A stretch of DNA of 64,000 nucleotides. Source: a virus. The notes beneath the pieces were generated by a model. The model was not told the DNA's origin and ran no database searches. It saw nothing but the letters and a program-made list of their open reading frames with translations. Positions 10,007 to 62,875 of the stretch are shown here, one piece after another (within the stretch, counting starts at the first letter, position 1; each line of letters starts with the position of its first letter). The position numbers were made by a program, and so were the translations under genes. The stretch is from the IMG/VR virus record IMGVR_UViG_3300034102_001739, positions 1-64,000 of that record, one strand, 5' to 3'.

Positions 10007-10017
10007 ATCCTTGGCTG

Positions 10018-10095
10018 TGTCCGGACAATAAAACTTTTATATTTAAACTAATCTCTTATTATTAATATAATATATATAAGTATTATTGTCCGAGG
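10018..10095. promoter_or_regulatory. Long-arm inverted repeat in the control region of the SF2 helicase gene
   Basis: CGGACAATAA at 10022-10031 and TTATTGTCCG at 10083-10092 are perfect 10-bp inverted copies. They are separated by 51 very AT-rich bases. They sit between the helicase start (10006) and promoter cassette 3. They could be paired operator sites for a looped repressor or a long stem in the leader RNA. Apart from this repeat and the promoter at 10157-10188 I see nothing else in 10007-10217. Confidence 0.55.
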
Positions 10096-10156
10096 GTTTC
10101 TTTTACCTAATCTATTTTCGCTAGTGAAATTCTAGTTTACTATTACGAAATAGACA

Positions 10157-10188
10157 CATAGATACGAAAAAATTTTTACACTTCCAAA
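10157..10188 (-). promoter_or_regulatory. Promoter-like cassette, copy 3 (diverged)
   Basis: The minus strand has ACTATTTGGAAGT, the same upstream element as the cassettes at 7.4 and 53.1 kb, then the same 20-bp spacing to TATCTATG. The -7 box is a poorer match to TAnnTTTG. It follows the end of the tail operon and precedes the helicase gene by about 150 nt. Confidence 0.6.
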
Positions 10189-10217
10189 TAGTTTATAACT
10201 CTATGGTTTATAGGGTA

Positions 10218-11666
10218 TTAGAACAAACATTCATCTATAAAAATATCCACTGAATCACCCGGATTTGCACAGGTTACTTCAAATCTTTTATCCCCAGTGT
10301 TTACAATAGTTGGGAGTGGTGTTCCGCCAGCTCCATCGAGAGCCATAATCCTATGTGCCCTCCTATCTAGTGTGTAAGGGATAGTCTTAGCCACATCTAG
10401 GAATAAATATATATAGTACTTTTCTGCATCTGCCACTACTGTTGTAGCCTTAATTTTAGCGTAACCGTTAATGAGGATATTTGTCAAATTTCCTCTAGCT
10501 ATACATTGGATACCACTATGCCAAAGTATTAAATTATCTACGTATCCTTTATTAGTTAAGTCGTCATTGTCTGAGGGGGTTGTATTTCTCTTTATATCCG
10601 AGAAAGTCTTCTCCCCATTAATAGTCAGGTCTCCTGATGTCCTTACAAAGTTATTAGTATTCTCCGTAGTTACTTTTTTATTTGTATCGAGAACCATAAT
10701 ACCGCTACTACTCTTGGGTAAATATACGCCCTCTCCGGCTGGTGCTTCAGAGTCTCCAGCTATATAAACATCTAATACATCCGTTCCTACTGGTGGTCCT
10801 ATACCTAAAAATCTTCCTGTAATTTTCGGGATTACGTACGCTGCGAATTGAGATTTTCTCCAAAAATCGTAGAAAGAAACTGCCAATTTCCATATAGCCG
10901 TACTAAAAGAATCCGAGGCTATTGGTAGGGGAAACTCCGTCATGTCATCAAGTGTACCCGTATAGGAATCCCCACCTATTGCAGTGTCCCTAACCGTACT
11001 TATCTGGTTTAACTGAGCCTGTGAATATACTGCCAATGTTCTATCCTCTGCAATAGAGTAATAAGGATACGACATCCTTTGGCATAATTGTAATCTATGT
11101 ACTATAAATAGCCCCACGTAACCTGATGGTATGTTTTGAAAAGGTTCTCCTATCGTCATTATGACTTGTTCCTCTTCATACACTATATGGTCTGCTGCAT
11201 CTTTGATAGTTCCATCCGAAAATTTTGCCCCCGAAATTAAGTAATCCGGTGCATCTGTTGCTCTAGTATGTAGCACCTCCTTAGCTATCACTATGAAATT
11301 AACCTCTACACCAACCGCTAAGTTTTGAGTGCCTGAGAATACCTTTTGTGGGATAACAAATTGCGCCCCATTGTAGCTAACCAAAATATCTGAGATTGTT
11401 ATATTACCCAGTACTAAATACTCCGCCCCTGCCAGTGGTGAATATTCTCCAGAGGCTACTTGAGTAGCGTTCTCCACAGTATAGGAAACTATCCCTCCAC
11501 CGCCTATAAGCTTTGAGGTTCTTTGTACATCTGAAGTAGCTGAAGCCATAATATCCAAAGACCTGTTATAGTCTGGAGCTGTTACGAGGTTAGGGGAACC
11601 TCTGAAAATAGCTTTCTTAATTTTCTGTAATGCGTCATACGGTTTATTGTTAATTACTCCACTCAT
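10218..11666 (-). CDS. Tail fibre / baseplate-attached fibre protein
   Basis: This 482-residue protein is the last gene of the tail operon, right after the gpI-like gene, the usual place of a fibre gene. Near residues 345-385 it has the phage fibre phrase GDLTINGEKTFSDI followed by DDLTNKGYVDN. The N-terminal part is glycine- and beta-rich. The C-terminus reads as a small beta domain (FEVTCANPGDSVDIFID). It would attach to the baseplate and help in host contact. The receptor cannot be told from the sequence. Confidence 0.65.
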   Translation of the reverse strand: MSGVINNKPYDALQKIKKAIFRGSPNLVTAPDYNRSLDIMASATSDVQRTSKLIGGGGIVSYTVENATQVASGEYSPLAGAEYLVLGNITISDILVSYNGAQFVIPQKVFSGTQNLAVGVEVNFIVIAKEVLHTRATDAPDYLISGAKFSDGTIKDAADHIVYEEEQVIMTIGEPFQNIPSGYVGLFIVHRLQLCQRMSYPYYSIAEDRTLAVYSQAQLNQISTVRDTAIGGDSYTGTLDDMTEFPLPIASDSFSTAIWKLAVSFYDFWRKSQFAAYVIPKITGRFLGIGPPVGTDVLDVYIAGDSEAPAGEGVYLPKSSSGIMVLDTNKKVTTENTNNFVRTSGDLTINGEKTFSDIKRNTTPSDNDDLTNKGYVDNLILWHSGIQCIARGNLTNILINGYAKIKATTVVADAEKYYIYLFLDVAKTIPYTLDRRAHRIMALDGAGGTPLPTIVNTGDKRFEVTCANPGDSVDIFIDECLF

Positions 11667-12316
11667 ACAAAATAAGGATTTAATAAGTTATGATAATAAA
11701 AATCTGTTCTAGGGGTGAAAGTGAAAATATTCTGTACGTCTAATAACGGACAGAATGGTAGCCACTCTTTTATATTATTAATTAGAAATGCCTTGATAGC
11801 CGTTTCCTCTAATGGGTAGTTTCCGTCGAAAAATTTACTCTGTATTGAAATGCTAAGAATAGGAATATCTCCAAAATCTTCTGTCTCTGTTACCATAAAC
11901 AGTTCTAAGTCATCCGTAGAATCCACGATAACACCTTGACGAATACTATCGAATAATAAATGGGAAGACCTACTATAAAAATCTGAATCATTTACGGCAA
12001 CTAACCCTAGAGACATCACGCTACAAAAAAATTCTACCCCGATTTTACTTCCCTTTAGCCCCGTAAAAAATTCGGCGTTGAGAATAACCTGCTGCATTAC
12101 CTGTACGGGAATATCATAGGGAAATTGGGGAAAACCTAGTTCAGCTAGGTACCTTAGTAATACTTTCTTATCCATACATAATAATGGATTCCACGTATTA
12201 AGAGCTGTACCTATAAGAGATTTCTCGTATTGGTACAACCCATCAAGTACATTTACCAAAGAAACCACATTGGGATTCTCGAATAATTTTTCTGGTATTC
12301 TCCTTTTAAACGACAT
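11663..12316 (-). CDS. Baseplate protein, phage tail protein I (gpI)-like
   Basis: This 217-residue protein starts with a helical N-terminal domain and contains the stretch VILNAEFFTGLKGSKIGVEFFCSVMSLG, whose layout resembles P2 gpI-family baseplate wedge proteins. It overlaps the gpJ/gp6-like gene upstream by 11 nt and the fibre gene by 4 nt. The order J, I, fibre is the standard contractile-tail order and supports the call. Sequence similarity alone is modest. Confidence 0.65.
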   Translation of the reverse strand: MSFKRRIPEKLFENPNVVSLVNVLDGLYQYEKSLIGTALNTWNPLLCMDKKVLLRYLAELGFPQFPYDIPVQVMQQVILNAEFFTGLKGSKIGVEFFCSVMSLGLVAVNDSDFYSRSSHLLFDSIRQGVIVDSTDDLELFMVTETEDFGDIPILSISIQSKFFDGNYPLEETAIKAFLINNIKEWLPFCPLLDVQNIFTFTPRTDFYYHNLLNPYFV

Positions 12317-31215: not shown

Positions 31216-32865
31216 TTAATATGAGTTTCTTTTAGACATACTTACCGCTGATTGTATTCCCTCGTATAACGGATTTTCCAATACTTCTATTTCGTACCCG
31301 GTTTCTTGTTCTTGATTAGCTGCTAAACAACAAAGGGCTAAACTATCCACGTAGTCATCAAAATGTCCCTCCATCTTATGACAAACTAAATAAGGTCCAT
31401 TGAAATACTTTAAACAGTTTTTCATTTGTTCCTCGAACTTAGTAAATTCTGTTGTACCCCTAACTCTACTACTGGCCGGAATTTTTATCCGCTTACAAGT
31501 AATGTCTGATGTTAGATTATACCACATATCCGACTTACTTTGTGCTGTAAAAGTATAGGGTTCTATGTTTACGTATTCTCCACAAGCATAGATTAACCTA
31601 TCTACAACCGCTTTTCCAACACCTGTATAATCCGCAAAAATGGTGGAAACATTGTATTGGGCTATTGCGTCTAGTATCGCATGATGTTGAGTCTCGTAGT
31701 CCAACTCCCCCAAATCTATCCACGTTAGTATCTCCTTAAAAGGTTTATCGAATACGTCCTCTCCTTTGTAAACTCTCGCTATGGTTAAGATAGTACTCGC
31801 AGGACTTTTCGCAATATCCAATCCGGCAACGACATAATCCGAATCTTTCGCCATTTGAAATCCTTTTGAACGATTAAGCAGATTGTTGAACTCTGTATCT
31901 GTAATGAGCATACCACTCTCCAAGTCCCAAGTGAGGGCGTACGCCAATTTAAACGCCTGTGAGTCTTCTCCCCATCTTTCTCTTTTCCTAAGGACATCCG
32001 ATTCGTAGTTTAGGTGAAACCTATTGCCATCCCTGTTGTAGGCTTCCCTACGAGCTCTTATGATATGTTTGTACTCGTATTCAAAATGATTACGTATTCT
32101 TTCATCCGAATTTTTTCTATCTATTGACCTGTTACGTTGAATTTCATCCCAAAAGTGATTTTTTACAGTACCCGTAGTACCTACTTTAAGCATAGTTCCA
32201 GCCGTAGCTGATAACATAGGTTCTATGGATTTGGTTACGATAAAATCGTCCACATCCTGTGCCTCTTCCACTATTACTAAGTCGTATGTCTTAGATTCTA
32301 TTTTAGACTGCTTACTCGCTACCTGTCCTGCCAAATATGACCCATTGGTGAGCGATAATTTCGCTGAACTAGTTAGGTACGATTCTATGTCTGGGTCTGA
32401 CATTATTATCTCCGCATTTGCCGAATTTAACCTAGTCATAGCCCTCGAATATGTGGTACTAACTTGGTCTGACTGGGGAGCGAATAACCCAATTCTGAAA
32501 CCGCTCTCGAACTGTTTTAATTCCGGAATAACTTTTGATAACGCCGGTAGTATTACAGTTAGAGTATCTATGATAAAAGCCATGGTCTCTGATTTACCTG
32601 ACTGCCTAGATAATAGTACTGTTTTTATATCCCCTCTAAAAGTAATTACCGAATGAATAACCGCATAAGCTATATCCACTTGGTACTGATATAAAGATAA
32701 TCCGGTTAACGCCTTACCGAACTCTACGATTTTTTCACACACAAAATGCTCGTCAAAAGTTACCGACTTACCTACTAGTTCATCGGTACTTATGTCTGAC
32801 ATACTTTCTCCAGTAGCCTTAAAGACTACCCCCTCTTCTAAGGGTTTACTTTTTTTCTTTGCCAT
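31216..32865 (-). CDS. Terminase large subunit
   Basis: This 549-residue packaging motor has Walker A SRQSGKSE near residues 86-93 and Walker B YDLVIVEEAQD near 200. The C-terminal nuclease has acidic sites in VAGLDIAKSP (near 348), FADYTG (near 413) and DDYVDSLALCC (near 520). All motifs look intact. The gene start overlaps the end of queD by 20 nt. No small terminase is recognisable; the genes just upstream (33397-35693) include candidates by position. Confidence 0.93.
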   Translation of the reverse strand: MAKKKSKPLEEGVVFKATGESMSDISTDELVGKSVTFDEHFVCEKIVEFGKALTGLSLYQYQVDIAYAVIHSVITFRGDIKTVLLSRQSGKSETMAFIIDTLTVILPALSKVIPELKQFESGFRIGLFAPQSDQVSTTYSRAMTRLNSANAEIIMSDPDIESYLTSSAKLSLTNGSYLAGQVASKQSKIESKTYDLVIVEEAQDVDDFIVTKSIEPMLSATAGTMLKVGTTGTVKNHFWDEIQRNRSIDRKNSDERIRNHFEYEYKHIIRARREAYNRDGNRFHLNYESDVLRKRERWGEDSQAFKLAYALTWDLESGMLITDTEFNNLLNRSKGFQMAKDSDYVVAGLDIAKSPASTILTIARVYKGEDVFDKPFKEILTWIDLGELDYETQHHAILDAIAQYNVSTIFADYTGVGKAVVDRLIYACGEYVNIEPYTFTAQSKSDMWYNLTSDITCKRIKIPASSRVRGTTEFTKFEEQMKNCLKYFNGPYLVCHKMEGHFDDYVDSLALCCLAANQEQETGYEIEVLENPLYEGIQSAVSMSKRNSY

Positions 32866-33391
32866 CTAGCCTACAATCGTAATTCATTTCACCTTTATAC
32901 TTTCTCCATAGGTCAAGACTTCTAGCGAAATCTTCCGTAGCCTCATATCTGGCTTCCTTACAGTCTACCCAACAATTTGGGGTCTCGAATAACCTTATGT
33001 TTACTAATTTTATTCCGTCTAAGTCCTTACGGAAAAAACGGTTAAAGATATAGAATAACTCTGAAGCTATATTTTCAGCAGAGGGATTATAGTCTCCTTT
33101 ATTGTCGAGACCCATAACCCAAAGTTTCCACTTATTTTCCTCTGTAAGATTAATTAAATCTTTGTCCAGAGGATTAAGCATTACTCCATGGTCTAGGAAC
33201 TCGTCTATAAACTCAAAAGCTACCCTCTTTATTTCTTTAAAGTCTATAGCGTATCCGATTGCTGCTAATTCATCATACTCAAAAGTAGTTTCCACCTCGA
33301 ATCTATGCCCGTGTAGATTGAAACACTTTACTTTCTCATTCATTACTCTGTGAGCTGTGTCGAAAGGATGTCTTCTTGTAATTGTACCCAT
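32846..33391 (-). CDS. queD: 6-carboxy-tetrahydropterin synthase (QueD)
   Basis: This 181-residue enzyme converts dihydroneopterin triphosphate to 6-carboxy-tetrahydropterin, the second step to preQ0. The zinc ligands are His14 (DTAHR) and His27/His29 (LHGHR), the catalytic Cys23 lies just before them, and FLDHGVMLNP and PSAENIA match the PTPS/QueD fold. It lies between a KTSC-domain gene and the terminase, far from queC and queE, but shares the pathway with folE. The 20-nt overlap with terminase suggests coupled expression with packaging. Confidence 0.9.
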   Translation of the reverse strand: MGTITRRHPFDTAHRVMNEKVKCFNLHGHRFEVETTFEYDELAAIGYAIDFKEIKRVAFEFIDEFLDHGVMLNPLDKDLINLTEENKWKLWVMGLDNKGDYNPSAENIASELFYIFNRFFRKDLDGIKLVNIRLFETPNCWVDCKEARYEATEDFARSLDLWRKYKGEMNYDCRLDGKEKK

Positions 33392-36275: not shown

Positions 36276-36662
36276 TTATTTATTACTATTTTCTACTGGG
36301 TAGTCCGGATACACGTCTAGCGAACCGTCATAAGTATCCTTAACAATAATAGTTAGATTTCCCGTACATTTTTCACCTAGATGAAAAGTACTCTTAATCC
36401 TTACGGCGCAAATAAAGCATCCGTTGGGGGTGTTATTATCCGCGAAATAGTAGTCCCAATCCCCCTCCTTTACCTTATGAATCTTAGGAAACCTTTCGTT
36501 TCTTAGAAATTTAGATAGGGGTGGGAAACCTTTCCGGACTAATCTTTTATCTACTGCCTCATCTACTGAAGCTATTACCCTCCTTATATATTCCTCCTCG
36601 ACAGTGTGGATTTCCATGCAGCTAGTTATTACTACTGGTAAGTCTGTGAATTTCTCTAACAT
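36276..36662 (-). CDS. Hypothetical protein
   Basis: This 128-residue protein is not recognised. It has a helical N-terminal half (EEEYIRRVIASVDEAVDK) and a beta-type C-terminal half with NGCFICAVRIKS. It overlaps the upstream zinc-ribbon gene by 7 nt, so the two are probably co-translated. Confidence 0.5.
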   Translation of the reverse strand: MLEKFTDLPVVITSCMEIHTVEEEYIRRVIASVDEAVDKRLVRKGFPPLSKFLRNERFPKIHKVKEGDWDYYFADNNTPNGCFICAVRIKSTFHLGEKCTGNLTIIVKDTYDGSLDVYPDYPVENSNK

Positions 36663-36889
36663 AGTTTATTTAATTTTGCGTTTAAAAATGAGATTGCCTT
36701 ATTATGGATATACGTCATGTGGAATAGTTGACCACACTCACATTTAATCCTAGCGCAACCGTTTTGATTTCTGTTACACCTATCCAGATATTTTTCATCT
36801 GTATCTGAATATGTTTTTCCGCATTTAGGACAAAGGAATACTATATTGCCCATACAAAGTATTCCTCCATTAATTTTAGTGCAAGTCAT
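36656..36889 (-). CDS. Zinc-ribbon protein
   Basis: This 77-residue protein has CPKC near residue 20, a cysteine pair in DRCNRNQNGC, and CECG near 50, which gives up to three zinc-binding corners. A second start (MGNIVFLCPKCG) lies 12 residues in. Small zinc-ribbon proteins of phages often bind nucleic acid or host RNA polymerase, but no specific role can be assigned. Confidence 0.6.
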   Translation of the reverse strand: MTCTKINGGILCMGNIVFLCPKCGKTYSDTDEKYLDRCNRNQNGCARIKCECGQLFHMTYIHNKAISFLNAKLNKLC

Positions 36890-36902
36890 ATTCCCGTTTT
36901 AT

Positions 36903-37175
36903 TTATATGTCCACTTCCCTTACAATGTTTCTTAGTACTTCCGAAATTTCGGGATACTTCTCTGCCAACCTTTCTAGCCTACTGATGTCCGATTTAGAGA
37001 GTACAAAGATTTGTAACTCCATTCTTGTAGAATGAGTATCCTCTTCTATCACTTCTGTAAATACATCGTGTTTGGCTATCTCTGCTGCCGTCGCATAAGT
37101 TAATTCCCTTTTTAATGCCTCTGGGTACTTATCGAACACCTCTCTAGCTACTCTTGCTCTTGTTATTACTTTCAT
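36903..37175 (-). CDS. Hypothetical protein
   Basis: This 90-residue protein is not recognised. It is helical throughout, with charged termini (VITRARVAREVFDKY, RLERLAEKYPEISEVL). It contains no membrane segment and no cysteine. It lies 21 nt before the next small gene in this run. Confidence 0.5.
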   Translation of the reverse strand: MKVITRARVAREVFDKYPEALKRELTYATAAEIAKHDVFTEVIEEDTHSTRMELQIFVLSKSDISRLERLAEKYPEISEVLRNIVREVDI

Positions 37176-37196
37176 TTTCGCCTATTTTTATTTGGT

Positions 37197-37361
37197 TTAT
37201 ACTATTTTCTCTACTTCTTCGGGATGCCGTTGAAAGTAACTAACGACCTCACTCCAGTGTTTTCTATCTACGATTACATGCTCATTATCTAACCCTAGAG
37301 AATACTCTGTCTTAGGGTGTCTGTGTAGGTAGTTTATTCCTACGTTCTTTGGTTTTTCCAT
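37197..37361 (-). CDS. Small hypothetical protein, 54 aa
   Basis: ATG at 37361 and TAA at 37197-37199 give 54 residues, MEKPKNVGINYLHRH onwards, with an RHPKTEY phrase early and QRHPEEV late, two similar RHP-containing segments. It fills the gap between two genes neatly, which supports it. The function is unknown. Confidence 0.5.
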   Translation of the reverse strand: MEKPKNVGINYLHRHPKTEYSLGLDNEHVIVDRKHWSEVVSYFQRHPEEVEKIV

Positions 37362-37403
37362 TATGTTTGACTCTTTAATTTTGTTAAGTTCTAATCTCCA
37401 TCG

Positions 37404-37634
37404 TTAGGCACAATTATAAGTGCGTAACTCGTCAATTAAACCTTTTTTATTAATATTGTCTTCGATATAGTGTAAATTTACACGATAACCTATATTTGAA
37501 TAAGACATTGCTTTTCCCGTACACTTATCACTGTTCTTTTCGATAAATGTTAAAATCTCTGCTTTCAAATCCTCAGAGCAAACAATGTCTTTTAATCGTT
37601 GTTCTAAATTCCAAGATGAGTCTAATTGTGTCAT
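37404..37634 (-). CDS. Hypothetical protein
   Basis: The start at 37634 (MTQLDSSWNLEQRL) is chosen because upstream codons encode an AT-driven hydrophobic run unlike the rest. The 76-residue product is helical with a few cysteines (IVCSEDL, KCTGK). The function is unknown. Confidence 0.45.
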   Translation of the reverse strand: MTQLDSSWNLEQRLKDIVCSEDLKAEILTFIEKNSDKCTGKAMSYSNIGYRVNLHYIEDNINKKGLIDELRTYNCA

Positions 37635-37693
37635 AAATATAAGTATTAAAGAATTAAAAATCCTTCCAAAAAAAATCATTGATTGATGTTTTA

Positions 37694-37894
37694 TTAGTGA
37701 ATTACTGGTTCATATAGCCAACTGCTCATATTTTCTCCTTTGGCTCTCCCTGTCCAGCTTCCACGTTCAAAATTTTTAGTTTTAGCGTCGTACCATTTAT
37801 GTGACCAACATCCATTATCTCTCTGATAATCCTGTCCAATCAATTTGCCGTTGTTATAGATATTTAATCTTTCAAGTTTTTGTTCTGTTGCCAT
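37694..37894 (-). CDS. Hypothetical protein
   Basis: This 66-residue protein is rich in Trp and Gly (NGCWSHKWYDAKTK, GSWTGRAKG), which suggests a small beta-sheet fold. It has no recognised family. It is one of a run of short leftward genes with short A-rich gaps. Confidence 0.5.
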   Translation of the reverse strand: MATEQKLERLNIYNNGKLIGQDYQRDNGCWSHKWYDAKTKNFERGSWTGRAKGENMSSWLYEPVIH

Positions 37895-37920
37895 ATCAAA
37901 TATTATTTTTGGTTGTTGGT

Positions 37921-38190
37921 TTATTGGTTGTTTTCTTCAAGAGCAATTAAAATAGCATCTGCCATGTCAACCGACCATTTTGCTATCATTTCGTATGGCA
38001 TTTGATTTGTATATTCTCCTCCGCAAAACCCCTGCATAGCTTTTGCGACGAAATATTCTCGTTTTGTCAATCCGCCAAATTTTACCTCGTAGCCTGTTTT
38101 TTGACCATCATTTAGAGGTTTGAAATCGTCTTCACCATCTCCACATCTAGTGTACATTGTTGGTGTAATAGGTTGTTTCCCGTTATTCAT
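37921..38190 (-). CDS. Hypothetical protein
   Basis: This 89-residue protein has a central phrase GLTKREYFVAKAMQGFCGG and an acidic C-terminal helix (DMADAILIALEENNQ). I recall similar phage proteins that begin with LTKREYFA and end in ADALI, commonly called hypothetical. Its function is unknown. Confidence 0.55.
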   Translation of the reverse strand: MNNGKQPITPTMYTRCGDGEDDFKPLNDGQKTGYEVKFGGLTKREYFVAKAMQGFCGGEYTNQMPYEMIAKWSVDMADAILIALEENNQ

Positions 38191-38200
38191 ATTTCTGTTT

Positions 38201-38536
38201 TTACTGTTTACTTAACTTATCTTTCTTTTGAGAATCCTGTAGCATCATTTGGTGTTCTATTGCCTTTGGTATTTCTTTCATCGGGATTTCGTACAATGCC
38301 AATTTTAGCATCAATATGTTTAACTGTGGATCATTTAATTCCGTGGCTCTTTGTGCCACCTCCGCTAAAATATTCTTAAATACGTTTAGGGGTATTTTTA
38401 ATACTCCCATACTTCTTGGTAATCCACAATCCGCAATTTCCGTCAGTAACTCCATAGTATGTACCCTAAATCCTACGTTCAAAGAAGAGTATATCTTATC
38501 TCCTGTTTGTTCTGTGTTTGACTGTTTCTTTTTCAT
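38201..38536 (-). CDS. Hypothetical protein
   Basis: This 111-residue protein is helical (FKNILAEVAQRATELND, LNILMLKLALYEIPM) with polar ends. No motif is recognised. It is followed by a short membrane-protein gene. Confidence 0.5.
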   Translation of the reverse strand: MKKKQSNTEQTGDKIYSSLNVGFRVHTMELLTEIADCGLPRSMGVLKIPLNVFKNILAEVAQRATELNDPQLNILMLKLALYEIPMKEIPKAIEHQMMLQDSQKKDKLSKQ

Positions 38537-38551
38537 ATTGTCAATTTTTAA

Positions 38552-38710
38552 TTACTTAACTAATTCCATTAAGCCACCAACAATGAGTAGCCCTATGACC
38601 ATTATTATAAATGTAATCTTGATGTGTGCTACCTGCATAGGTTCGTCTGCGAACCATGTCCAAATTGTTTCTTTTACTAGCTGTTTAGCTTCTTTGAGTA
38701 GTCTTTTCAT
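38552..38710 (-). CDS. Small single-span membrane protein, 52 aa
   Basis: ATG at 38710 is followed by a basic amphipathic helix (MKRLLKEAKQLVKE) and a hydrophobic span at about residues 32-48. The upstream gene stop is at 38712, directly before it. It could be a small membrane effector or moron. The function is unknown. Confidence 0.55.
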   Translation of the reverse strand: MKRLLKEAKQLVKETIWTWFADEPMQVAHIKITFIIMVIGLLIVGGLMELVK

Positions 38711-38711
38711 A

Positions 38712-39038
38712 TTATTTTTGTATTAATGATAAATCTAAAGATATTGTTTGCATTGCTTTCCCACTTCTATTCATTGAATAAGGATATTTCTTATCCTCTG
38801 GTAGTGATAATGGCATATTTTCATTTATGTGCTGACTCAGTGTTTGTATTGTTATTAGCATTATTGTTACACATAAATCATACTGAGATTTTGCGCTCAT
38901 ATTTATAAAAAATATGTGGGTATTGTTCAGATTTTCCCTTATGTTTGTCATATTCAATATAATATCGTCGTAAGATTTATGTTGCCCATATTTTGAGAAT
39001 ATTAGGGCTTTAAACTTTTTAGTTTTTCTGTTTTCCAT
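38712..39038 (-). CDS. Hypothetical protein
   Basis: This 108-residue protein is not recognised. It begins with a basic segment (KTKKFKALIFSKYG). The middle (VTIMLITIQTLSQH) could be a buried helix. It overlaps the upstream small gene by 37 nt. Confidence 0.45.
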   Translation of the reverse strand: MENRKTKKFKALIFSKYGQHKSYDDIILNMTNIRENLNNTHIFFINMSAKSQYDLCVTIMLITIQTLSQHINENMPLSLPEDKKYPYSMNRSGKAMQTISLDLSLIQK

Positions 39039-39500: not shown

Positions 39501-39968
39501 CTAGTCTATATACTTTGTAAGCATTCCATGTTCCTCGAAAGAAAAATAACTGTAGTCTGGACCTATGATAATATGGTCTACTACTTTTATACCGAACAAC
39601 TCTAACGCCTTTGTAATTCTGTGGGTGATGTTCTCGTCTTCCTTACTTGGTCTAGTCTCTCCACTTGGGTGGTTATGTGCCAATATGACCCCTGCCGATA
39701 AACTTTCTACCGCATATTTTGCTACGATTTTTACGTCCACTACTGTTCCAGCCGTTCCACCTTGTGAAATTTTTACGTAACCCGTAGTGATGTTTGCTCT
39801 GTTCAATAGGACTAAGAAAAAGCTCTCGTATATCTCCAAATCGTCTCCGTAGAACTTTCTAACGAACTCTACTGCGTCAATGCTTTTAGTTATCTTGACT
39901 TTTGGAAAATCGCTTTTCTCTGCTTTCAGTGATAGGTTACTGACTGTACTCTTATACTTTTTGACCAT
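39501..39968 (-). CDS. RadC-like JAB/MPN-domain protein
   Basis: This 155-residue protein matches the RadC C-terminal domain. AGVILAHNHPSGETRPSKED supplies the H-x-H-P-S-G and Asp metal-binding (JAMM) signature, and HIIIGPDYSYFSFEEHGML is the usual C-terminal phrase. The N-terminal HhH region of full RadC is missing, as is usual for phage and plasmid forms. Its role is uncertain; RadC is not proven to repair DNA. Confidence 0.88.
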   Translation of the reverse strand: MVKKYKSTVSNLSLKAEKSDFPKVKITKSIDAVEFVRKFYGDDLEIYESFFLVLLNRANITTGYVKISQGGTAGTVVDVKIVAKYAVESLSAGVILAHNHPSGETRPSKEDENITHRITKALELFGIKVVDHIIIGPDYSYFSFEEHGMLTKYID

Positions 39969-42620: not shown

Positions 42621-43367
42621 CTATCCGTTTAATCTTTCTGTGGTAAAATACTCCCAAATTCTTTCGTCGATATAGCTTTTCTTACAAACTCCGACTGTAT
42701 TATTCAAATGATTTGATACTTCCTCCGCTATTTCTCTAACCTCTGCATTCAACTCTCTTTTTGTACTGGGGACTTCCCGTTCCATGACCGACTGTAATTT
42801 GTCCCATGCGACCATATTCGCTTTCAGTGTCCTAAAATCCTTTGGTGTAAACTGTTTCCCGACTGTTTTCCCAACAAACTTACTTAGCTGATAATCTGTT
42901 ATCCCAAATAAAGTATCCTCTCCTACTCTGTCCTTAGCCACTTTACGTAACTGCCGACACAACTCCCCATATACTTTAAAACTATTCTCAACTTGTTTTT
43001 TACCCAAAAAATACAAACTTCCACTTCTGCTGGTAAACGAAACGTGTTCCACTTTCAAGGTAGTCAGTCCATAAGTTTGTACGAACATCGGTTCTGCTTT
43101 ACTGTTTGGATGTGGTTTTGTGATATATCCCTCTGCGCTTCCCTCATTCCCAATCCGTATCCCTGTCCACATCATCAATTTCAATCCTAGTGCCAATCTA
43201 GCTTGTTCAGAACAATAATTCCCTCTTACTATGAATCCATCCAACTTTTCATCCAAACTTTCGAACATTCTAGCCAATTTTACAACTCGGTTGAATTTCG
43301 AGGTATTGCTACCTCTACTCTTCCCGAAGAAACCATACTCGGTTCCATTGATAATTACAGTTTCCAT
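42621..43367 (-). CDS. DNA topoisomerase IB, poxvirus/bacterial type
   Basis: This enzyme of about 248 residues relaxes supercoils by a 3'-phosphotyrosine link. All catalytic residues are visible: Arg71 (WTGIRIGNE), the beta-hairpin lysine near 123 (FLGKKQ), Arg178 (PKDFRTLKAN) and Tyr231 (CKKSYIDER). YGLTTLKVEHV at about 99-109 is a family hallmark. It matches the catalytic domain and is shorter than bacterial TopIB because the N-terminal domain is reduced. It may support DNA replication or relieve torsion next to the origin-like region. Confidence 0.9.
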   Translation of the reverse strand: METVIINGTEYGFFGKSRGSNTSKFNRVVKLARMFESLDEKLDGFIVRGNYCSEQARLALGLKLMMWTGIRIGNEGSAEGYITKPHPNSKAEPMFVQTYGLTTLKVEHVSFTSRSGSLYFLGKKQVENSFKVYGELCRQLRKVAKDRVGEDTLFGITDYQLSKFVGKTVGKQFTPKDFRTLKANMVAWDKLQSVMEREVPSTKRELNAEVREIAEEVSNHLNNTVGVCKKSYIDERIWEYFTTERLNG

Positions 43368-44103: not shown

Positions 44104-44130
44104 AATCTTACGGTTTTTAAATTATTTCTT

Positions 44131-44232
44131 TCACGCTGGCATATCATCGAAATGAGTAGTTAAGTCTATTTTCTTTGCTGCTGTTGATTCGCAAGGAGCT
44201 GAATCTAACTCGTCATAACTTATTGTTTTCAT
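44131..44232 (-). CDS. Tiny first gene behind the origin-side promoter, 33 aa
   Basis: ATG at 44232 and TGA at 44131-44133 give 33 residues starting MKTISYDELDSAPCES and ending in DDMPA. It is the first reading frame behind the promoter, about 45 nt from the expected RNA start, and is acidic. A regulatory peptide or a leader are both possible. Confidence 0.45.
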   Translation of the reverse strand: MKTISYDELDSAPCESTAAKKIDLTTHFDDMPA

Positions 44233-44278
44233 AATCTTGTGGTTTTAGTTGTTTTTATTGTTGTTATTTAAACATACA

Positions 44279-44308
44279 CAAAGATAAGTATTGTAATTAC
44301 AATAACAA
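44279..44308 (-). promoter_or_regulatory. Promoter with a perfect 16-bp operator palindrome in its spacer
   Basis: The minus strand has TTG, 19 bp, then TATCTTTG, a perfect -7 box. The spacer holds TATTGTAATTACAATA at 44289-44304, a perfect palindrome that would place a repressor over the polymerase contact. The related TTGTTATAACAA at 44539-44550 and TTGTTATCACAA at 45446-45457 may be further sites. This promoter would drive the small-gene run to the left. Confidence 0.85.
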
Positions 44309-45035
44309 TACATATTCAGTTAAAATTTCACTGTAAATATGTTAAAAATACTGTTTTTACACACAGTTACGGACTGTTTTACATACGGGGAACACCTCAT
44401 AGATACTTACTATAACCACCCACATACTGATAGACACCCGCTATACTACATAACTACAACTCCCACCCGTACTCCCCACCGATTTTTAGCCCCCACACAC
44501 TACCCACACGTACACAACTACACACACAATCTCGTGTATTGTTATAACAACAATTATGTCCGGTCTTTTAAATTCCATTTTTACTTATACGTACTACCCC
44601 AAGCAACACCCAATAAAAATCGCATTTAAGGGGCGGGGGTCTCTACTCTCTATACTACTTACTAATAACATCACACTCCACTCCTGCGCAAAATTATTTT
44701 CCTAGCTAGTTATTTCTAGTTACTCCTCCCGCTTATTTTTATTTTATTTTATTACTTTCTCCTAATTCTAATTTGTGCATTTTAATTTTCCCAATCTAAT
44801 TTCTAATTTAATTTTTGCGCCGTTTAGATTTCTAATTAGTTATTTCTAATTTTCTAAAATCTAATTAGCAATTTTCTAATCTAAAAAATCGCTGAGTAAT
44901 TTTCTAATTAGAATTTCTAGTTACAGTAAATAAGAATCTAATCAGAATAATCTAATTTCTAATTTGCGGGGAAAATAAAATTAGCTTATCAGTTATATAG
45001 TATGTAGGTAATAGGGAATACTACACAACTCTACC

Positions 45036-45108
45036 GCTAATTTAATTCTAACTAGCTAATTTAATTCTAGCTACGCTTATTTAATTCTAGTTACTGCTAA
45101 TTACTAAT
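45036..45108. repeat. Tandem repeat of about 20 bp (three units plus a partial)
   Basis: Units begin at 45036, 45055, 45075 and (partial) 45096. The best unit is GCTAATTTAATTCTAGCTAC, with units of 19, 20 and 21 bp and few changes. The spacing resembles iterons, which bind a replication initiator. It lies in the middle of the gene-free region. Confidence 0.75.
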
Positions 45109-45650
45109 TAAAATCAAATTATCATTTTGATAGTTCGATTTTCTACTTTTTTATATATCCTCGGGAAAAAACCGTGCCTTTTTCTAATTAGAACAAATTA
45201 GAATCTAATTTTCTGACACTTTGAAAGCAAAACGTTACGTGCGTGACAAAATGTCAAATCGTAAAGCCCAAATCCTTGAGATATTTTGCGCTAAACAAGG
45301 AAAATGCCCGTAAAATTAAAATCTAATCAATTATAATAGTAAATTCTTATCAGTAATAGTAGTAATATAACACGCAGTATAAGTAATTAATCTCTCTGCG
45401 TAGCGTAATTTAATTTCTAATTAGCCAATTCTAGTTAGCCAGTTGTTGTTATCACAATACTTGTAGCTTCATAACTAGCTGAATATCAATAAATTCTAAT
45501 TTTACTTCTCTCTGCGTGTGCTAGCTGTAGCTAATTTTTCTAATTCTGTCAACTCTGTCTAGCTTAGCTGAGTTAATAGTTTCACACACTTATTACTCCA
45601 TATACATACTACTCCTATTACATACATATACTTATACTATTATACAATAC

Positions 45651-45659
45651 TTATCCACA
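45651..45659 (+). promoter_or_regulatory. DnaA box
   Basis: TTATCCACA is a perfect match to the 9-base DnaA consensus. It sits in the gene-free region, 110 nt from the tip of the CTAATT-rich block. A single box could occur by chance, but the location supports host DnaA binding at an origin. Confidence 0.5.
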
Positions 45660-45847
45660 ATTACTGCCCGTTTTCTTGTTTCCGTTTTCTAGTTACTGAC
45701 TACTTACTCCTATAACCGCCTTTATACCTACCTACTACTTTGGTTTATCCTAGATACTACTACCTTATTCTACTTCTTACTATCCTTTATAATACTAGCT
45801 TTACATAGTATTTTTACCCCTCCGCCCGATTTTTTATTTTTGGGTAC

Positions 45848-45889
45848 GAAAAAAGGGACTTCCTAGAACCGAAATTCTAGGTTGCCCCC
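45848..45889 (-). terminator. Intrinsic terminator closing the 53-46 kb gene run
   Basis: On the minus strand CCTAGAA and TTCTAGG (7 bp, loop TTTCGG) lie inside an outer GGG/CCC pair with an internal loop, followed by six T. It is 64 nt after the stop of the small membrane gene at 45953. It isolates the origin-like region from incoming transcription. Confidence 0.85.
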
Positions 45890-45952
45890 ACTTATCAGTA
45901 CTTTTATTAGTACTTTATCATTTTCCTGACATCGGGAATATGATACTTCCCT

Positions 45953-47396: not shown

Positions 47397-48449
47397 TTAC
47401 TTTTTAAAAGTGTGGTTTGAAAATACTGCCCTTAACTCGTTCGCAAAAATCTCTTTGGAACGACTTCTAAAAAGAGCTATTGCCTCCGTACACATACCCA
47501 ATCCTTGATAGTTTACATCTTTATAATCTTCCGCTCGTAGAGTAATCCATCCCACCACTCTATCTCCATCATAGATGTTATATAGGTATCCCTCCACATC
47601 CTTAGAACTTGTTGCTCTCTTTCCTAAGTTGATTACCTGAGCTCTTAGATGTATTCCTGTTGGGTATCTCTCTTTATACCTACGTACTGCCTCCTCCGCA
47701 AATTGCTCGTGGGTAGGTGTGACACCATCGCCTAAAAAGTTACTTGGTACATCTTGATGCCCAACTGTATTGAACATCCCTTGTAGAATACGAAATTTAT
47801 AGACTATAACATCTTCTTTCTCCTCCTTACAAGTGTCCTCCTTTAGTTCTTCTCGTTTATTTAACACACAATCCTCTACCCAACCCTGTGCGTCTATTAG
47901 GGTAGCTTTTACTTTTTCCCTATTGACTGTATTTGGAGTAACCTTTATGTAATGATTTACTGCTGCTTCTTCTAATGATTTATCTGGGCAATAATTTTCG
48001 TCTAAGATTCTTACAGTTACGGTTACATTTCTTATGTACTTACCCTCCTCTGTGATACGGTAAGTGTAATACCTAACATCTTTAAGTTCCTCCTCCGTAG
48101 GGTCTCTATGAAGTATTTCATACTTTATCTTCTCCTCGGTAGCATCTTCGATAACTACTTTGTCCCAATATTTCTCGTTGTAATAGTGGGCGTAGAACAT
48201 GGCATTACACAGTACGTGCCCGATGTGGTGAAGTCCAGACTCTTTATCAAATTCCTCTCCGTTATTTAGAGCTACTACGTGACGCATCATGGAATCCAAT
48301 AACTCGTTTTGTGGTAAACCTTTCTTCCAATTATGTGCGCCGTATTTTTCTGCTCCAAACATGAGTACTTTCACCAACCACTCTAGTGCCGAGAATGAAA
48401 CTAAACTCCATCTCAGTTTTCCTTTGTTGAATCTCTTTGCCTGTTCCAT
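47397..48449 (-). CDS. dATP/dGTP diphosphohydrolase-like protein with C-terminal extension
   Basis: The first 95 residues match the MazG-like all-alpha dATP/dGTP diphosphohydrolase N-terminal family: RFNKGKLRWSLVSFSALEWL, VLMFGAEKYGAHNWKKGL, MRHVVALNNGEEFDKESGLHHIGH. The Glu, Asp and His residues are as expected for metal binding. The remaining 250 residues are unknown; they contain a beta-rich part (TYRITEEGKYIRNVTVTVRI) and a stretch with HEQFAEEAVRRYKERYP. The fusion is unusual, as the enzyme is usually about 150 residues or less. A role in dGTP or dATP pool control fits a phage with modified guanines. Confidence 0.75.
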   Translation of the reverse strand: MEQAKRFNKGKLRWSLVSFSALEWLVKVLMFGAEKYGAHNWKKGLPQNELLDSMMRHVVALNNGEEFDKESGLHHIGHVLCNAMFYAHYYNEKYWDKVVIEDATEEKIKYEILHRDPTEEELKDVRYYTYRITEEGKYIRNVTVTVRILDENYCPDKSLEEAAVNHYIKVTPNTVNREKVKATLIDAQGWVEDCVLNKREELKEDTCKEEKEDVIVYKFRILQGMFNTVGHQDVPSNFLGDGVTPTHEQFAEEAVRRYKERYPTGIHLRAQVINLGKRATSSKDVEGYLYNIYDGDRVVGWITLRAEDYKDVNYQGLGMCTEAIALFRSRSKEIFANELRAVFSNHTFKK

Positions 48450-51548: not shown

Positions 51549-52208
51549 CTACATTCTTATTAATTGTAGGAACTCGTTTCTCAAACTTCCCTCGAAAAAC
51601 TGTCCTCCTAGTTTTGAGGATACCGTGTCACTATTTACATCCTCTACACCTCTTAACTGTACGCAAGCATGCTTTGCTCTGACTAGAACCGCTACGTTAT
51701 CTGTACCCAATAAATGAGTCAATGCGTAGTAGATTTGTTCGACCATTCTCTCTTGTACTTGGGGTCTTCTAGCGAAAAATTCTACGACACGATTTAGTTT
51801 CGAGAGCCCAATTATTTTTTGGTCCGGAATGTACGCTACAAATGCCTCACCAAAGATTGGGACAAAATGGTGCTCACACATTGAAGCCACCTTAATGTTT
51901 CTCTCCAGTAACACATTGGAGTATCCCATCTTATTTTCTATGGTAGTTATCTTTGGGAAATTGTTGTAATCTAAGCCCCAAAATACTTCTTGTGTAAACA
52001 TTTTTGCCACTCTCCGTGGAGTTCCACTTAACGAATCATCAGTTAGTGGAAGACCTAACGCCATCATAATACCTCTGAAGTGGTTTTCAATCACTGGAGC
52101 ATTAGCCTCTAGGTTTACGGAAGTCTCTGTAACTTCTACTCCCTTTCCTACTAAGACATCTCTAATCTCTCTTCCTAAACTTCCGTCTAGTTTACTTTTA
52201 TCTAACAT
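51549..52208 (-). CDS. folE: GTP cyclohydrolase I (FolE)
   Basis: This 219-residue enzyme makes dihydroneopterin triphosphate from GTP, the entry to both folate and preQ0. Zinc ligands are in SMCEHHFVPIFG (Cys and His) and HACVQLRG (Cys). The phrase GLSKLNRVVEFFARRPQVQERM is the family signature. It uses GTP as the source of the phage deazaguanine. It is separated from the other preQ0 genes by 7-20 kb on either side. Confidence 0.93.
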   Translation of the reverse strand: MLDKSKLDGSLGREIRDVLVGKGVEVTETSVNLEANAPVIENHFRGIMMALGLPLTDDSLSGTPRRVAKMFTQEVFWGLDYNNFPKITTIENKMGYSNVLLERNIKVASMCEHHFVPIFGEAFVAYIPDQKIIGLSKLNRVVEFFARRPQVQERMVEQIYYALTHLLGTDNVAVLVRAKHACVQLRGVEDVNSDTVSSKLGGQFFEGSLRNEFLQLIRM

Positions 52209-59416: not shown

Positions 59417-60124
59417 CTACAAATTTTTTGGAATTGTCATTTCTTTGATGATGTCTTTAGCCTTATCCTGTAACATCATAAACTTATGAGTCTGCATATT
59501 TACATACCCGGTAAATTTTCTTTCTCTTAGAGTTTTTAGAAAATCTACTGTACTAATTTTAGAACCCCAATATAGTCCAAGGGCTATGTTTACTCTCTTA
59601 TTAGGAATACTCTCTATAAGAGTAAAGGCTTCCTCTAAGTCTTCCTCCGAATTTACCACGAATTTTATGAAGTCTTTGTCGTTTAGGATTCCTACGTTTT
59701 TGTTTAGGAAACTTCCTCCCTCTCCAGTACTTGCCAATTTGTAATCTACTACAAAACTGACATTTTCTAAATCCCTATACGGAGAAACGTCCATACTTCC
59801 ATTTGTTTCTACTACGACTTTAAATCCTAAATTGGATAATCTTTGTAGTAACTCCGTAGGTCTAAACATAAGAGGTTCTCCTCCAGTTAGACAAATTACA
59901 TCGTTACCATAGTCTTCCAATTTATCTATGATTTCGTTAAGGGTTAGACTGTCTCCTTGATGTTTTTCTAAAGACTCTGGAGTATCACATAAAGTACCCA
60001 TTGTGTCTAGGTAACATCTTAAATTACACCCGGCTAGCCTTACGAAAGTACAAGCTACTCCTATTCCGTATGTGTTTACCTCTCCCATGAAAGATGGGTA
60101 AATCGTATTTACTTTAAAATCCAT
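59417..60124 (-). CDS. queE: 7-carboxy-7-deazaguanine synthase (QueE), radical SAM
   Basis: This 235-residue enzyme turns 6-carboxy-tetrahydropterin into 7-carboxy-7-deazaguanine. Cys33, Cys37 and Cys46 would hold the 4Fe-4S cluster. The last gap is eight residues (CYLDTMGTLC) rather than the usual two, so the cluster loop is longer. GGEPLM (LTGGEP) binds SAM. The gene overlaps the unknown upstream gene by 11 nt and ends at a terminator. Confidence 0.88.
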   Translation of the reverse strand: MDFKVNTIYPSFMGEVNTYGIGVACTFVRLAGCNLRCYLDTMGTLCDTPESLEKHQGDSLTLNEIIDKLEDYGNDVICLTGGEPLMFRPTELLQRLSNLGFKVVVETNGSMDVSPYRDLENVSFVVDYKLASTGEGGSFLNKNVGILNDKDFIKFVVNSEEDLEEAFTLIESIPNKRVNIALGLYWGSKISTVDFLKTLRERKFTGYVNMQTHKFMMLQDKAKDIIKEMTIPKNL

Positions 60125-60572
60125 TTCTTACTTCTTCTTTAGTTATGTATTTATTGACTATTACTCTCTCCCTAAACTCCGGATAACTCTTAACGAAAAG
60201 GGCTAGGCTTTTTATTAATACCTCCCTCTCTAATGGGTCTTTTGGTTTAAATGCTTTTGTAGGTAGTAACATTCCCTCTAGTGCCGATAGACGTTCTATC
60301 TTACCCATTGCTAGGTATCTTTGGGACAGTAATTTTATTCTACCATAACCGTCTAAACTACATCTTACTACTGAATAATACGTCTGCTTCTTGTAGTAAG
60401 AGGTTAGCTCCGCCATCAATACTGCTGCTAACTCTGGATGTACTTTTCTACACATACTTTTAGTACCCTCGATGTACTCCCTTGTCGCTTTTAAATCCAG
60501 TTCCGATACTACTCCTTTGACTTTGTGTTCTACGTTAGACCCTACTAGGAATCTGTAACTACTTTCTGCCAT
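60114..60572 (-). CDS. Unknown protein in the deazaguanine run, 152 aa
   Basis: This 152-residue protein is not recognised. It is mixed helical and beta, with MCRKVHPELAAVLMAELTS in the centre and basic C-terminal helices (YPEFRERVIVNKYI). It overlaps queE by 11 nt, so it is translated with it. Its position between DpdA-like and QueE genes suggests a partner in base modification, such as a DpdA accessory subunit. Confidence 0.5.
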   Translation of the reverse strand: MAESSYRFLVGSNVEHKVKGVVSELDLKATREYIEGTKSMCRKVHPELAAVLMAELTSYYKKQTYYSVVRCSLDGYGRIKLLSQRYLAMGKIERLSALEGMLLPTKAFKPKDPLEREVLIKSLALFVKSYPEFRERVIVNKYITKEEVRNGF

Positions 60573-60575
60573 TTT

Positions 60576-61271
60576 TTATTCTTTTTTAGGTTTCTTTCTA
60601 GGAGACGCTGAAGCTATAACAACTGCTTCCTCTATTTGTTTTTGGGGCTCTTCTTTAGGGGGTGTTGGGGCAAATAATTTTGCTAGAATACCTCCTCCAC
60701 TTCCTCCTGCTGGTGAAGAAGCATCTATTTTTAAAGAGAAATGTTCTCTCCCCGCATTTACTTTGGACATTACCAAATTACTAAGTCTATCTAGTTCCCC
60801 CGATAGATTAGCATCCGGTACTCCTCCGTCTATTTTCTCGTACACAGACGCTCTTTTTACCCTCTCGTATTGTACCTCTACTAAGAACGTATAAAAATCG
60901 TCAGGTGTTTCAGGTGTCTGCCCTCCCCATTCTATACCACAAACGAACCCTGATTTAAACGAGGGGCATTTGTCGTACATATAACACGAGTCACAATTTA
61001 CGCCTATTCCGACTACTTCCCTCATAGGAATTTTTGGACGTTCTTTGACTATGAGTTGTTCAAAAGTCTCGTCCCAAATATCCATTGGATTTCCTACTAT
61101 CCTAGATAGGTAATACTCCTTACATTCCTCTAGGTCACTGTCTGATTGTTTACAAGTAATACACTCAGGATATTCTCCTGTTATAAAAAACGGACAAAGG
61201 TGTTTCTTTAGAGTAGTACTCTCCTCCGCCATTTTTATAATCTGTATTCTCGACTTAACGCTTTCTTTCAT
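60576..61271 (-). CDS. Unknown Cys-rich protein in the deazaguanine run, 231 aa
   Basis: This 231-residue protein has two Cys groups in the first 120 residues, CPFFITGEYPECITC and NCDSCYMYDKCPSF followed by VCGIEWGG. They could hold iron-sulfur or zinc sites. The C-terminus is Pro/Lys-rich and disordered. It overlaps the DpdA gene by 17 nt. An electron carrier or a modifying enzyme acting on inserted preQ0 would fit the context, but no family match is known to me. Confidence 0.5.
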   Translation of the reverse strand: MKESVKSRIQIIKMAEESTTLKKHLCPFFITGEYPECITCKQSDSDLEECKEYYLSRIVGNPMDIWDETFEQLIVKERPKIPMREVVGIGVNCDSCYMYDKCPSFKSGFVCGIEWGGQTPETPDDFYTFLVEVQYERVKRASVYEKIDGGVPDANLSGELDRLSNLVMSKVNAGREHFSLKIDASSPAGGSGGGILAKLFAPTPPKEEPQKQIEEAVVIASASPRKKPKKE

Positions 61272-62190
61272 ATTTACCTGCCTCTTTATTTGTTAGTAAC
61301 AAATTAGCTATTTTTATGTACTCTTTTCTGAACCCTAACCATGCCAATAAGTTCATTCTATTAACATCGTCTCTGTGATCCTTTTTCGTTACTTTTGAGA
61401 AATCTACTCCAGCCTCCTCGTATTTTATTCTCTGCCCCTTACGCCGAAATTTTTGTTTGGTATCCCAACTCTTGAAATTTTTACCGTCGTAATTAAAAGT
61501 AGTTCCGTATCGTACTCCACTTAACCAAGACGTAGAATCCACGCTAAAAAATGGATACCTCCGTAATATTCTTATCTCTGTCCATGCGAATCCATGTACT
61601 CTTACCTTGTATTTTTTGGCCAGTAGAAAGAATCTGTGGGCGAATTTCTTTTGACTTTGATTTATACCTACGTATTTATACTTTTTACAGTACTCTTCAA
61701 AATGTTCGATACCGTGTGGGTCTATGCTCTCGTCCTCGTGTGCTACATAAACTACGTCAACTATTTTTTCTAGGGGCTCAAAGTATTTTTTATTCCACTT
61801 TCTTACTATCTCCCTACCCACGATTTTATCTAAGTCTAGGTTAGCGACTACGTAGATATACTCACTATGCGCTCTAACCCATGCGACATACTCCTCCAAG
61901 TAGGGAATCCAATACTCTTCTTTGCGCATTTCCTCCACGAATCCTGTCGCCATAAAGGAGAACGCTCCAGAGTCCGTCATAAACAAACCACCCTCCGATT
62001 TTAAAAACGGTAGTACTTCATCATAGTAGGTTAGACCTTTTCTAATGTAGAAGTAAGAAACTAATATCTCCCTAATACCAAACGCTACTAATTGTTTAGT
62101 ATCTCCTACTGACGACGCTGAAAAGAACATTACTCCTTTGTTTTTATTCTTATCGTAGTAACCCTCTTGCTCTTTTAACTTCTTCAACAT
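61255..62190 (-). CDS. dpdA: DpdA-like DNA-guanine transglycosylase
   Basis: This 311-residue protein has the TGT-type barrel signatures. MTDSGAFSF near residues 71-79 supplies the general acid-base Asp73, and ANLDLD near 117 gives an Asp119 at the nucleophile position. VHGFAWTEIRILRRYPF then SVDSTSWLSG (about 198-225) matches phage DpdA and archaeal-like TGT ends. It would swap guanine in DNA for preQ0 or a derivative. The Cys-x-Cys zinc site of bacterial TGT is not visible. The start overlaps queC by 41 nt; a later start at residue 21 (MFFSASS) is possible. Confidence 0.8.
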   Translation of the reverse strand: MLKKLKEQEGYYDKNKNKGVMFFSASSVGDTKQLVAFGIREILVSYFYIRKGLTYYDEVLPFLKSEGGLFMTDSGAFSFMATGFVEEMRKEEYWIPYLEEYVAWVRAHSEYIYVVANLDLDKIVGREIVRKWNKKYFEPLEKIVDVVYVAHEDESIDPHGIEHFEEYCKKYKYVGINQSQKKFAHRFFLLAKKYKVRVHGFAWTEIRILRRYPFFSVDSTSWLSGVRYGTTFNYDGKNFKSWDTKQKFRRKGQRIKYEEAGVDFSKVTKKDHRDDVNRMNLLAWLGFRKEYIKIANLLLTNKEAGKYERKR

Positions 62191-62875
62191 ACTTTACTGG
62201 TAATTTTCCACCGTATTTAATTCTCTCTAAAACCTCTTTTTGTAACGACTGGATACTTTTACTTGTTATCCGTTCCTCGAATAATTCGGGGTCAAATATG
62301 TTATTATTAACTAGTGCTACGGCTTTATTTAAACAAGGACGACATTTTCCGCATCCTTTGTGACTTTTTGAATCGTAGCAAGAACGTATCTGTTGTACCT
62401 TAGGGATAGGCATTCCTCTCTCAATTACTTCTTTTACCATTTCCGATTTTGTCAAGTCTCTGAAAGGTACTAGAAAGCTAAAGTTTTTACTCTCCCAACC
62501 CATGTCTGCCTCACAGTTACTATTTAGATGCCTAAACAACGTCATTGTCCGTTTAATAAACGTATCGTCCTTATCAGGAGCATCATCAGAGGCGTTTAGT
62601 CCTAAATATACGTGTTGCCCATACTGCATAGCTATAGTTAACAGTAGTAAATTTCTATAAGGTAGATATTTACTTTCTCTCTCATACTCACCTATTGGTA
62701 ACTCTTTTATGAGTAACCTGTCTTGGTAGTGTTTAGGTAAAGTCTTTAGGAAAGCTATCTCTACTTCTGAGTAAGATGTCTTCATATCTACGTATAGTAA
62801 AACGTCAGGACTTATTAGAAATTCTTGTAGTGTGGAGTCAAATCCTCCAGAAAATAATAATACTTTTTTCTCCAT
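62150..62875 (-). CDS. queC: 7-cyano-7-deazaguanine synthase (QueC)
   Basis: This 241-residue enzyme makes preQ0 from 7-carboxy-7-deazaguanine with ATP and ammonia. SGGFDS (residues 9-14) is the PP-loop. Cys166, Cys175, Cys178 and Cys181 form the C-terminal zinc site (HKGCGKCRPC). YLPYRNLLLL is also family-typical. It begins the run to queE. A palindromic terminator lies 18 nt upstream, so the run may rely on read-through or on a promoter I cannot identify. Confidence 0.92.
   Translation of the reverse strand: MEKKVLLFSGGFDSTLQEFLISPDVLLYVDMKTSYSEVEIAFLKTLPKHYQDRLLIKELPIGEYERESKYLPYRNLLLLTIAMQYGQHVYLGLNASDDAPDKDDTFIKRTMTLFRHLNSNCEADMGWESKNFSFLVPFRDLTKSEMVKEVIERGMPIPKVQQIRSCYDSKSHKGCGKCRPCLNKAVALVNNNIFDPELFEERITSKSIQSLQKEVLERIKYGGKLPVKYVEEVKRARGLLR

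Follow-up and report, generated by a model that had tools for sequence, protein, structure and literature searches.

A gene-free block in a relative of Bacteroides phage BS162P1 as a probable replication origin fused to an early-gene control region

A gut-phage genome densely packed with genes on one strand is interrupted by a single long stretch without genes, which raises the question of what function this stretch serves. The DNA analysed here, called the window, covers positions 1-64,000 of a virus record 64,740 bases long, and nearly all of its genes are located on the minus strand. A first-pass annotation had described about 1.5 kb without a gene at 44340-45848 and had interpreted this interval as a replication origin or a partition-like centre. 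The lack of genes was confirmed: no supported gene is present there, and the interval is part of a wider coding-strand gap, which is by far the largest in the interior of the record.

44104-45952, no strand assigned: gene-free block between two minus-strand operons, with no minus-strand ORF of at least 50 aa

The sole ORF inside the block (44339-44629, plus strand, 96 aa) runs opposite to all genes, and the alignment with the phage BS162P1 over this ORF has gaps of 1-3 bases. The block was also correctly described as AT-rich, its G+C content being 31-32% versus 38%.

The window is collinear, in inverted orientation, with Bacteroides phage BS162P1 (OP172706, 88.9 kb); identities of 30-80% are found for most conserved genes, and their order is kept. 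About 12 kb of BS162P1 gene content is missing at the ends of the window's record. The BS162P1 record overlaps itself by 55 bp, which indicates a circular assembly. Further relatives are the IMG/VR contig 3300034684_000292 (G003), of which L005 is a near copy, the contigs L007 and L008, and MT835482, with G001 and G002 being more distant. A scan of viral contigs with a single topoisomerase sequence gave no match; the relatives were found with two- and five-row topoisomerase alignments as scan queries. The topoisomerases IB of BS162P1, G003, L007, and L008 have 57-58% identity to that of the window, so that the comparisons are independent and do not concern strains of one phage. Contigs L009-L024, with topoisomerases of 24-38% identity, were set aside as other phages, and the motif was found in none of the nine examined. 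BLAST searches with the DNA of the block against phages and plasmids gave no match; synteny and a sequence model were used because the block diverges too fast for BLAST at the DNA level.

The position of the block is conserved in this group. Just upstream of the topoisomerase operon, about 1-2 kb are free of genes in BS162P1, G003, and L008; the L007 contig starts within the block, and at the corresponding position MT835482 and G001 have stretches without genes that are broken by small ORFs. The topoisomerase IB that had been reported next to the block is indeed present:

42621-43367, minus strand: topoisomerase IB in the early operon downstream of the block (Pfam Topoisom_I, 2.5e-18)

In MT835482, the conserved element is present and topoisomerase IB is not detectable at this place, which indicates that the arrangement of the block is independent of that gene. 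The early region of the window also encodes a RadC-like JAB-domain protein (39501-39968, minus strand). In circular BS162P1, the two halves of the block are the only coding-strand gaps of more than 400 bp, which makes the block the sole intergenic origin candidate of that size in this phage. Phage origins can sit inside genes too. A common layout consisting of AT-rich repeats, a single copy of the element, and a Bacteroides-type promoter is found in the window, BS162P1, G003, L007, L008, and MT835482. The comparison with relatives that had been proposed as a check thus turned out positive for the block, since its place, its layout, and an element of about 75 bp are kept.

Several kinds of repeats are located in the block.

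44700-45560, no strand assigned: AT-rich repeat field with 20 CTAATT, 7 AATTAG, and CTAGTTA variants (motif counts, G+C windows)
45035-45102, plus strand: tandem array with a period of 19-20 and about 3.4 copies (TRF score 99, the best in the window)
45120-45132, no strand assigned: 13-bp palindrome TATCATTTTGATA (sequence)
45244-45256, no strand assigned: 13-bp palindrome TGACAAAATGTCA, related to TATCATTTTGATA (sequence)

The earlier count of about 20 CTAATT motifs is exact for the plus strand, compared with a mean of 2.04 (sd 1.43, maximum 7) in 500 dinucleotide shuffles. AATTAG is counted seven times, and the 1.5-kb windows richest in CTAATT all overlap the block. The 150-bp windows of the repeat field with 21-25% G+C, among them 44701-44976, rank with those of lowest G+C in the record. 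No clear helical phasing was apparent in the spacing of CTAATT. The three tandem units described before are located at 45036-45054, 45055-45073, and 45075-45093. A repeat array enriched beyond chance and an adjacent AT-rich unwinding region are two of the features by which an iteron-type theta origin was judged, and both are present. The repeat field is a candidate region for initiator binding and unwinding.

The repeats themselves vary among the phages, with CTAATTA/AATTAGA in the window and BS162P1, TGCGGAA/AATTGCG/ATTCTTA in G003, and CTAGTTA/GCGTAGC in L008; CTAATT repeats are clearly common only to the window and BS162P1. Two mixed versions of the 13-bp palindrome, TGACAAAATGATA and TATCATTTTGTCA, are found in the block of L008, and in this phage and the window the palindromes are a possible further binding site. 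That the repeats differ and their position stays is counted in favor of an origin. In PLEs, the DNA-binding domain of the initiator and the origin vary together while the place is kept (PMC7145576, PMC8263062). The PLE satellite origin with its RepA iterons is also a non-coding region with several repeat types (PMC7145576, PMC8263062), but no RepA_N protein was found in the window, and its repeats are short and scattered whereas PLE iterons are semi-palindromic and about 30 bp long. The previously reported DnaA box exists as a single TTATCCACA at 45651-45659, but it is not conserved, TTATNCACA being absent from the blocks of BS162P1, G003, L007, and L008. A DnaA-dependent origin, which needs several conserved boxes, was therefore rejected.

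A terminator and a regulated promoter had been placed on opposite borders of the block, and both are present.

45845-45890, minus strand: intrinsic terminator closing the upstream operon (hairpin of -19.5 kcal/mol, then TTTTTT)
44279-44308, minus strand: Bacteroides-type promoter TTG-N19-TATCTTTG of the early operon (consensus match)
44289-44304, no strand assigned: perfect 16-bp operator palindrome TATTGTAATTACAATA in the promoter spacer (sequence)
44400-44530, minus strand: GT-rich stretch of the coding strand, downstream of the conserved element (G+T fraction)

The hairpin at about 45890-45845 was missed by a generic terminator scanner; comparable terminator hairpins open the block in BS162P1 and L008. 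On the minus strand, the promoter is composed of TTG (44308-44306), 19 nt, and TATCTTTG (44286-44279), following the TAnnTTTG promoter consensus (PMC7366714), and a TAnnTTTG box closes the block in the window, BS162P1, G003, L007, L008, and MT835482. Near-perfect copies of TATTGTAATTACAATA are located at 44537-44552 and 45444-45459, and no other matches with 0-1 mismatches occur in the record, so all of them lie inside the block. In the segment 100-200 bp past the core of the element, the G+T fraction is 0.76 in the window, 0.69 in BS162P1, and 0.70 in L008; no such peak is found in G003 and L007. A possible 33-aa ORF, MKTISYDELDSAPCESTAAKKIDLTTHFDDMPA (44132-44233, minus strand), would head the early operon. 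The start of this ORF and the next gene have the common leader AAGATTATGAAAAC, and a 17-bp tandem repeat is located at 44213-44246.

These signals are the basis of the main rival explanation, according to which the block serves transcriptional control only: the early promoter would be insulated, would have operators at a distance, and would be preceded by an array to which a regulator of the phage or the host binds. The operator evidence for a purely regulatory region is good, as the block holds the operator in the spacer and also both near-perfect copies, at distances of 250 and 1150 bp, and the promoter is of the sigma-ABfr type in a conserved neighbourhood. However, a gene-free field of 1.5-2 kb far exceeds the need of one promoter in compact genomes, and the conserved element is located some 330-640 bp upstream of the promoter box. 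Moreover, the operators are conserved only in L008, the promoter of which has a perfect copy of TATTGTAATTACAATA, and not in BS162P1, G003, or MT835482. Control of transcription as the only function is thus considered unlikely. The block of BS162P1 agrees with that of the window in its place, the element, the promoter type, and the CTAATTA/AATTAGA repeats; it differs in being unannotated, in that the record is cut inside it, and in having the operator palindrome GGTTATTGCAATAACC.

The most conserved part of the block lies within the interval of the first-pass annotation but was absent from it.

44560-44648, minus strand: conserved bipartite element CC.TTAAATG-N~20-GG.TA-N7-TAGGTAAGAA (alignments, shuffles, sequence model)

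In the window, this single-copy element of about 75 bp consists of the core CCCTTAAATG (44632-44623), about 20 bp, GGGTA, 7 bp, and TAGGTAAGAA; in the alignment of the blocks, the part after the 7 bp is TA and a GTAAGAA-like end. Its alignment is nearly gap-free across five phages. In pairwise alignments, the core segment mostly scores above all shuffles or nearly all of them, and these alignments fall on one diagonal; the pair L007/L008 is an exception. When 9-mers were required to have three or more G/C letters, only CCCTTAAAT was present in four of the five blocks, and any such 9-mer was present in four of five blocks in 9 of 1000 dinucleotide shuffles of all blocks. Both the GC-containing 9-mers and the restriction to core segments were chosen after the motif had been seen, and because the 9-mer threshold was set post hoc, the alignments and the sequence model are the stronger evidence. 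A k-mer test over whole blocks did not reach significance on its own, since blocks have AT-rich 9-mers in common by chance; with the restriction to GC-containing 9-mers and the core segment, the result was significant. Applied to 438 kb, the five-phage sequence model finds those five phages and then MT835482 (E 1.1e-4), which had been left out when the model was built. The copy in MT835482 is located in the gene-free gap at the equivalent position, and about 400 bp downstream of it there is a TATATTTG box. In L007, the model finds another copy with a weaker score (E 0.012). In the more distant G001 and G002 there is no significant copy under the model, and a CCCCCCTTGTAAATG seen by eye in G002 and a C-tract in G001 were discarded as not significant under it. 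We did not find an earlier description of the element.

A long gene-free stretch with one conserved segment could also be a gene for a long non-coding RNA. Against this, the block has no Rfam match at gathering thresholds, the element has no conserved base pairing and unremarkable folding, and the conserved promoter downstream points away, so that an RNA gene is very improbable. An RNA structure in the element was rejected on the evidence of pairing and folding, and the lack of conserved pairing favours a DNA site bound by a protein.

Such a site might be recognized by a terminase, in which case the element would mark a pac site or genome end, possibly together with a late rolling-circle origin. 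The element is short, single-copy, and conserved, it is located at the junction of a one-directional gene map, and two sequences, the record of BS162P1 and contig L007, have their breaks within the block; in ICP1, a link between pac and a late rolling-circle origin has been suggested (PMC7145576). In contrast, the contigs of the window, G003, and L008 run through the block, and together with the self-overlap of BS162P1 this makes fixed ends at the element unlikely. A cos-type site, at which records end and which none spans, does not agree with the three contigs spanning the element. The two breaks are 338 and 561 bp from the element and have no common point. A pac site would be expected in or beside the terminase genes, but the large terminase is encoded about 11 kb away (31216-32865), and the small terminase was not identified. 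Packaging as the function of the element is therefore regarded as improbable.

An origin would further require proteins acting on it, and candidate genes for these are located near the start of the window.

1712-4012, minus strand: DnaB-type replicative helicase with an intein (Pfam DnaB_C, Hom_end_hint, Hom_end)
4012-4629, minus strand: DnaC-like helicase loader (PHROG 50, 9e-29)
4632-5399, minus strand: candidate initiator of 255 aa (gene order only)

With the loader (PHROG 50) and the helicase (DnaB_C), the phage also has the protein pair that was looked for in an iteron-type theta origin. The protein encoded directly upstream of the loader has 41-47% identity to its homologs in three relatives and no family or PDB match. 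Two AlphaFold models, for which the BS162P1 and MT835482 sequences had been left out of the input, had mean pLDDT values of 37 and 41, were too poor, and were not used; the genes next upstream of the loader in phages of Gordonia and Mycobacterium are unnamed and were of no help either. In phage lambda, ori consists of O iterons and an AT-rich region and lies inside the O gene. The block resembles it in having repeats beside AT-rich DNA and in the dedicated initiator and helicase loader, but it is intergenic and far from the candidate initiator, whereas lambda ori is within the O gene.

A comparison of gene order is offered by Bacillus phage SPP1, the origins of which consist of direct repeats and an AT-rich unwinding region, on which an origin-binding protein acts together with a loader and a DnaB helicase (PMC6316719). 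By analogy with the gp38-gp39-gp40 order of SPP1, the product of 4632-5399 may be the initiator. Like oriL and oriR, used with gp38, gp39, and gp40 (PMC6316719), the block is an AT-rich island with direct repeats; like oriR, it is one of the longest intergenic regions and bracketed by transcriptional signals, and the set of origin-binding protein, loader, and DnaB helicase is comparable. Unlike in SPP1, the initiator of the window is a candidate without sequence match to known families, the block is some 40 kb from the loader genes, and a conserved CCCTTAAATG...GGGTA element is present while the repeats differ among relatives.

The inteins of these phages vary in their location. A stretch of BS162P1 (36399-39005) matching the intein region of the window's DnaB (38.6%) sits inside a DEAD-type helicase gene, which indicates that related inteins occupy different host genes in these related phages. 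In BS162P1, the large terminase (9334-12057) aligns as two pieces about 1 kb apart in one reading frame, which suggests that it carries an intein and that the terminase of the window is without one. Other genes of the window encode 7-deazaguanine DNA modification (59417-62875, 51549-52208, 32846-33391), namely QueC, QueD, QueE, GTP cyclohydrolase I, and a TGT/DpdA-like enzyme. The latter is split across the adjacent ORFs 60576-61271 and 61255-62190, and it is split also in BS162P1 and G003. A protein with an N-terminal dATP/dGTP diphosphohydrolase domain is encoded at 47397-48449 (minus strand).

The partition-like centre of the first reading has little support. Short AT-rich repeat arrays beside a regulated promoter do resemble centromere-like sites, and a parS-like site could serve a plasmid-like state of the phage. 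However, no ParA/ParB family was found among the scanned proteins, which comprise part of the ORFs of a record from which about 12 kb is missing. Scans with two proteins found no relative in 84,980 bacterial species genomes, and there was no plasmid match. A partition function is considered extremely improbable.

Three things are required of an origin, namely an array for binding, a region for unwinding, and protection from transcription, and the block provides each of them. Judged by its anatomy and conservation, it is probably a replication origin joined with the region that controls the early genes. This reading of the first-pass annotation is the best supported one, on grounds that differ from the original ones, since conservation is lacking for the DnaA box, and only BS162P1 clearly has the CTAATT repeats as well; an origin is a plausible interpretation that now has a firmer basis. 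The GC-skew analysis proposed earlier was carried out for three genomes, including third codon positions, and revealed no switch at the block. This neither supports nor excludes an origin, because all genes are on one strand and transcription could hide a switch.

We infer the identity of the initiator, the part of the DNA that it would bind, the opening of the strands, and the start of replication at the block. In the proposed sequence of events, the candidate initiator (4632-5399) would bind the AT-rich repeat field, the CCCTTAAATG...GGGTA element, or both, and would open the AT-rich DNA. The DnaB helicase (1712-4012) would then be placed on the DNA via the DnaC-like loader (4012-4629). The upstream terminator would keep transcripts from entering the block, while the promoter, controlled by a palindrome-binding regulator, would start the early genes and could link their transcription with initiation. 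More tentatively, the element might be the invariant heart of an undescribed type of phage origin, in which a fixed initiator or strand-opening site would be combined with fast-changing AT-rich repeats and with an initiator family, the homologs of 4632-5399, without detectable known relatives.

In the literature searched, which included few subscription journals, no description of a mapped replication origin was found for this group of Bacteroides phages. The candidate defined here is precise and conserved; it comprises a core of 75 bp, a promoter, and an operator, a candidate initiator is named for it, and all of these can be tested in BS162P1, a relative in culture, with its host B. salyersiae. 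If the origin reading is true, it would also provide a portable marker by which origins could be found in uncultured gut phages, as well as a first building block for replicon tools in Bacteroides.
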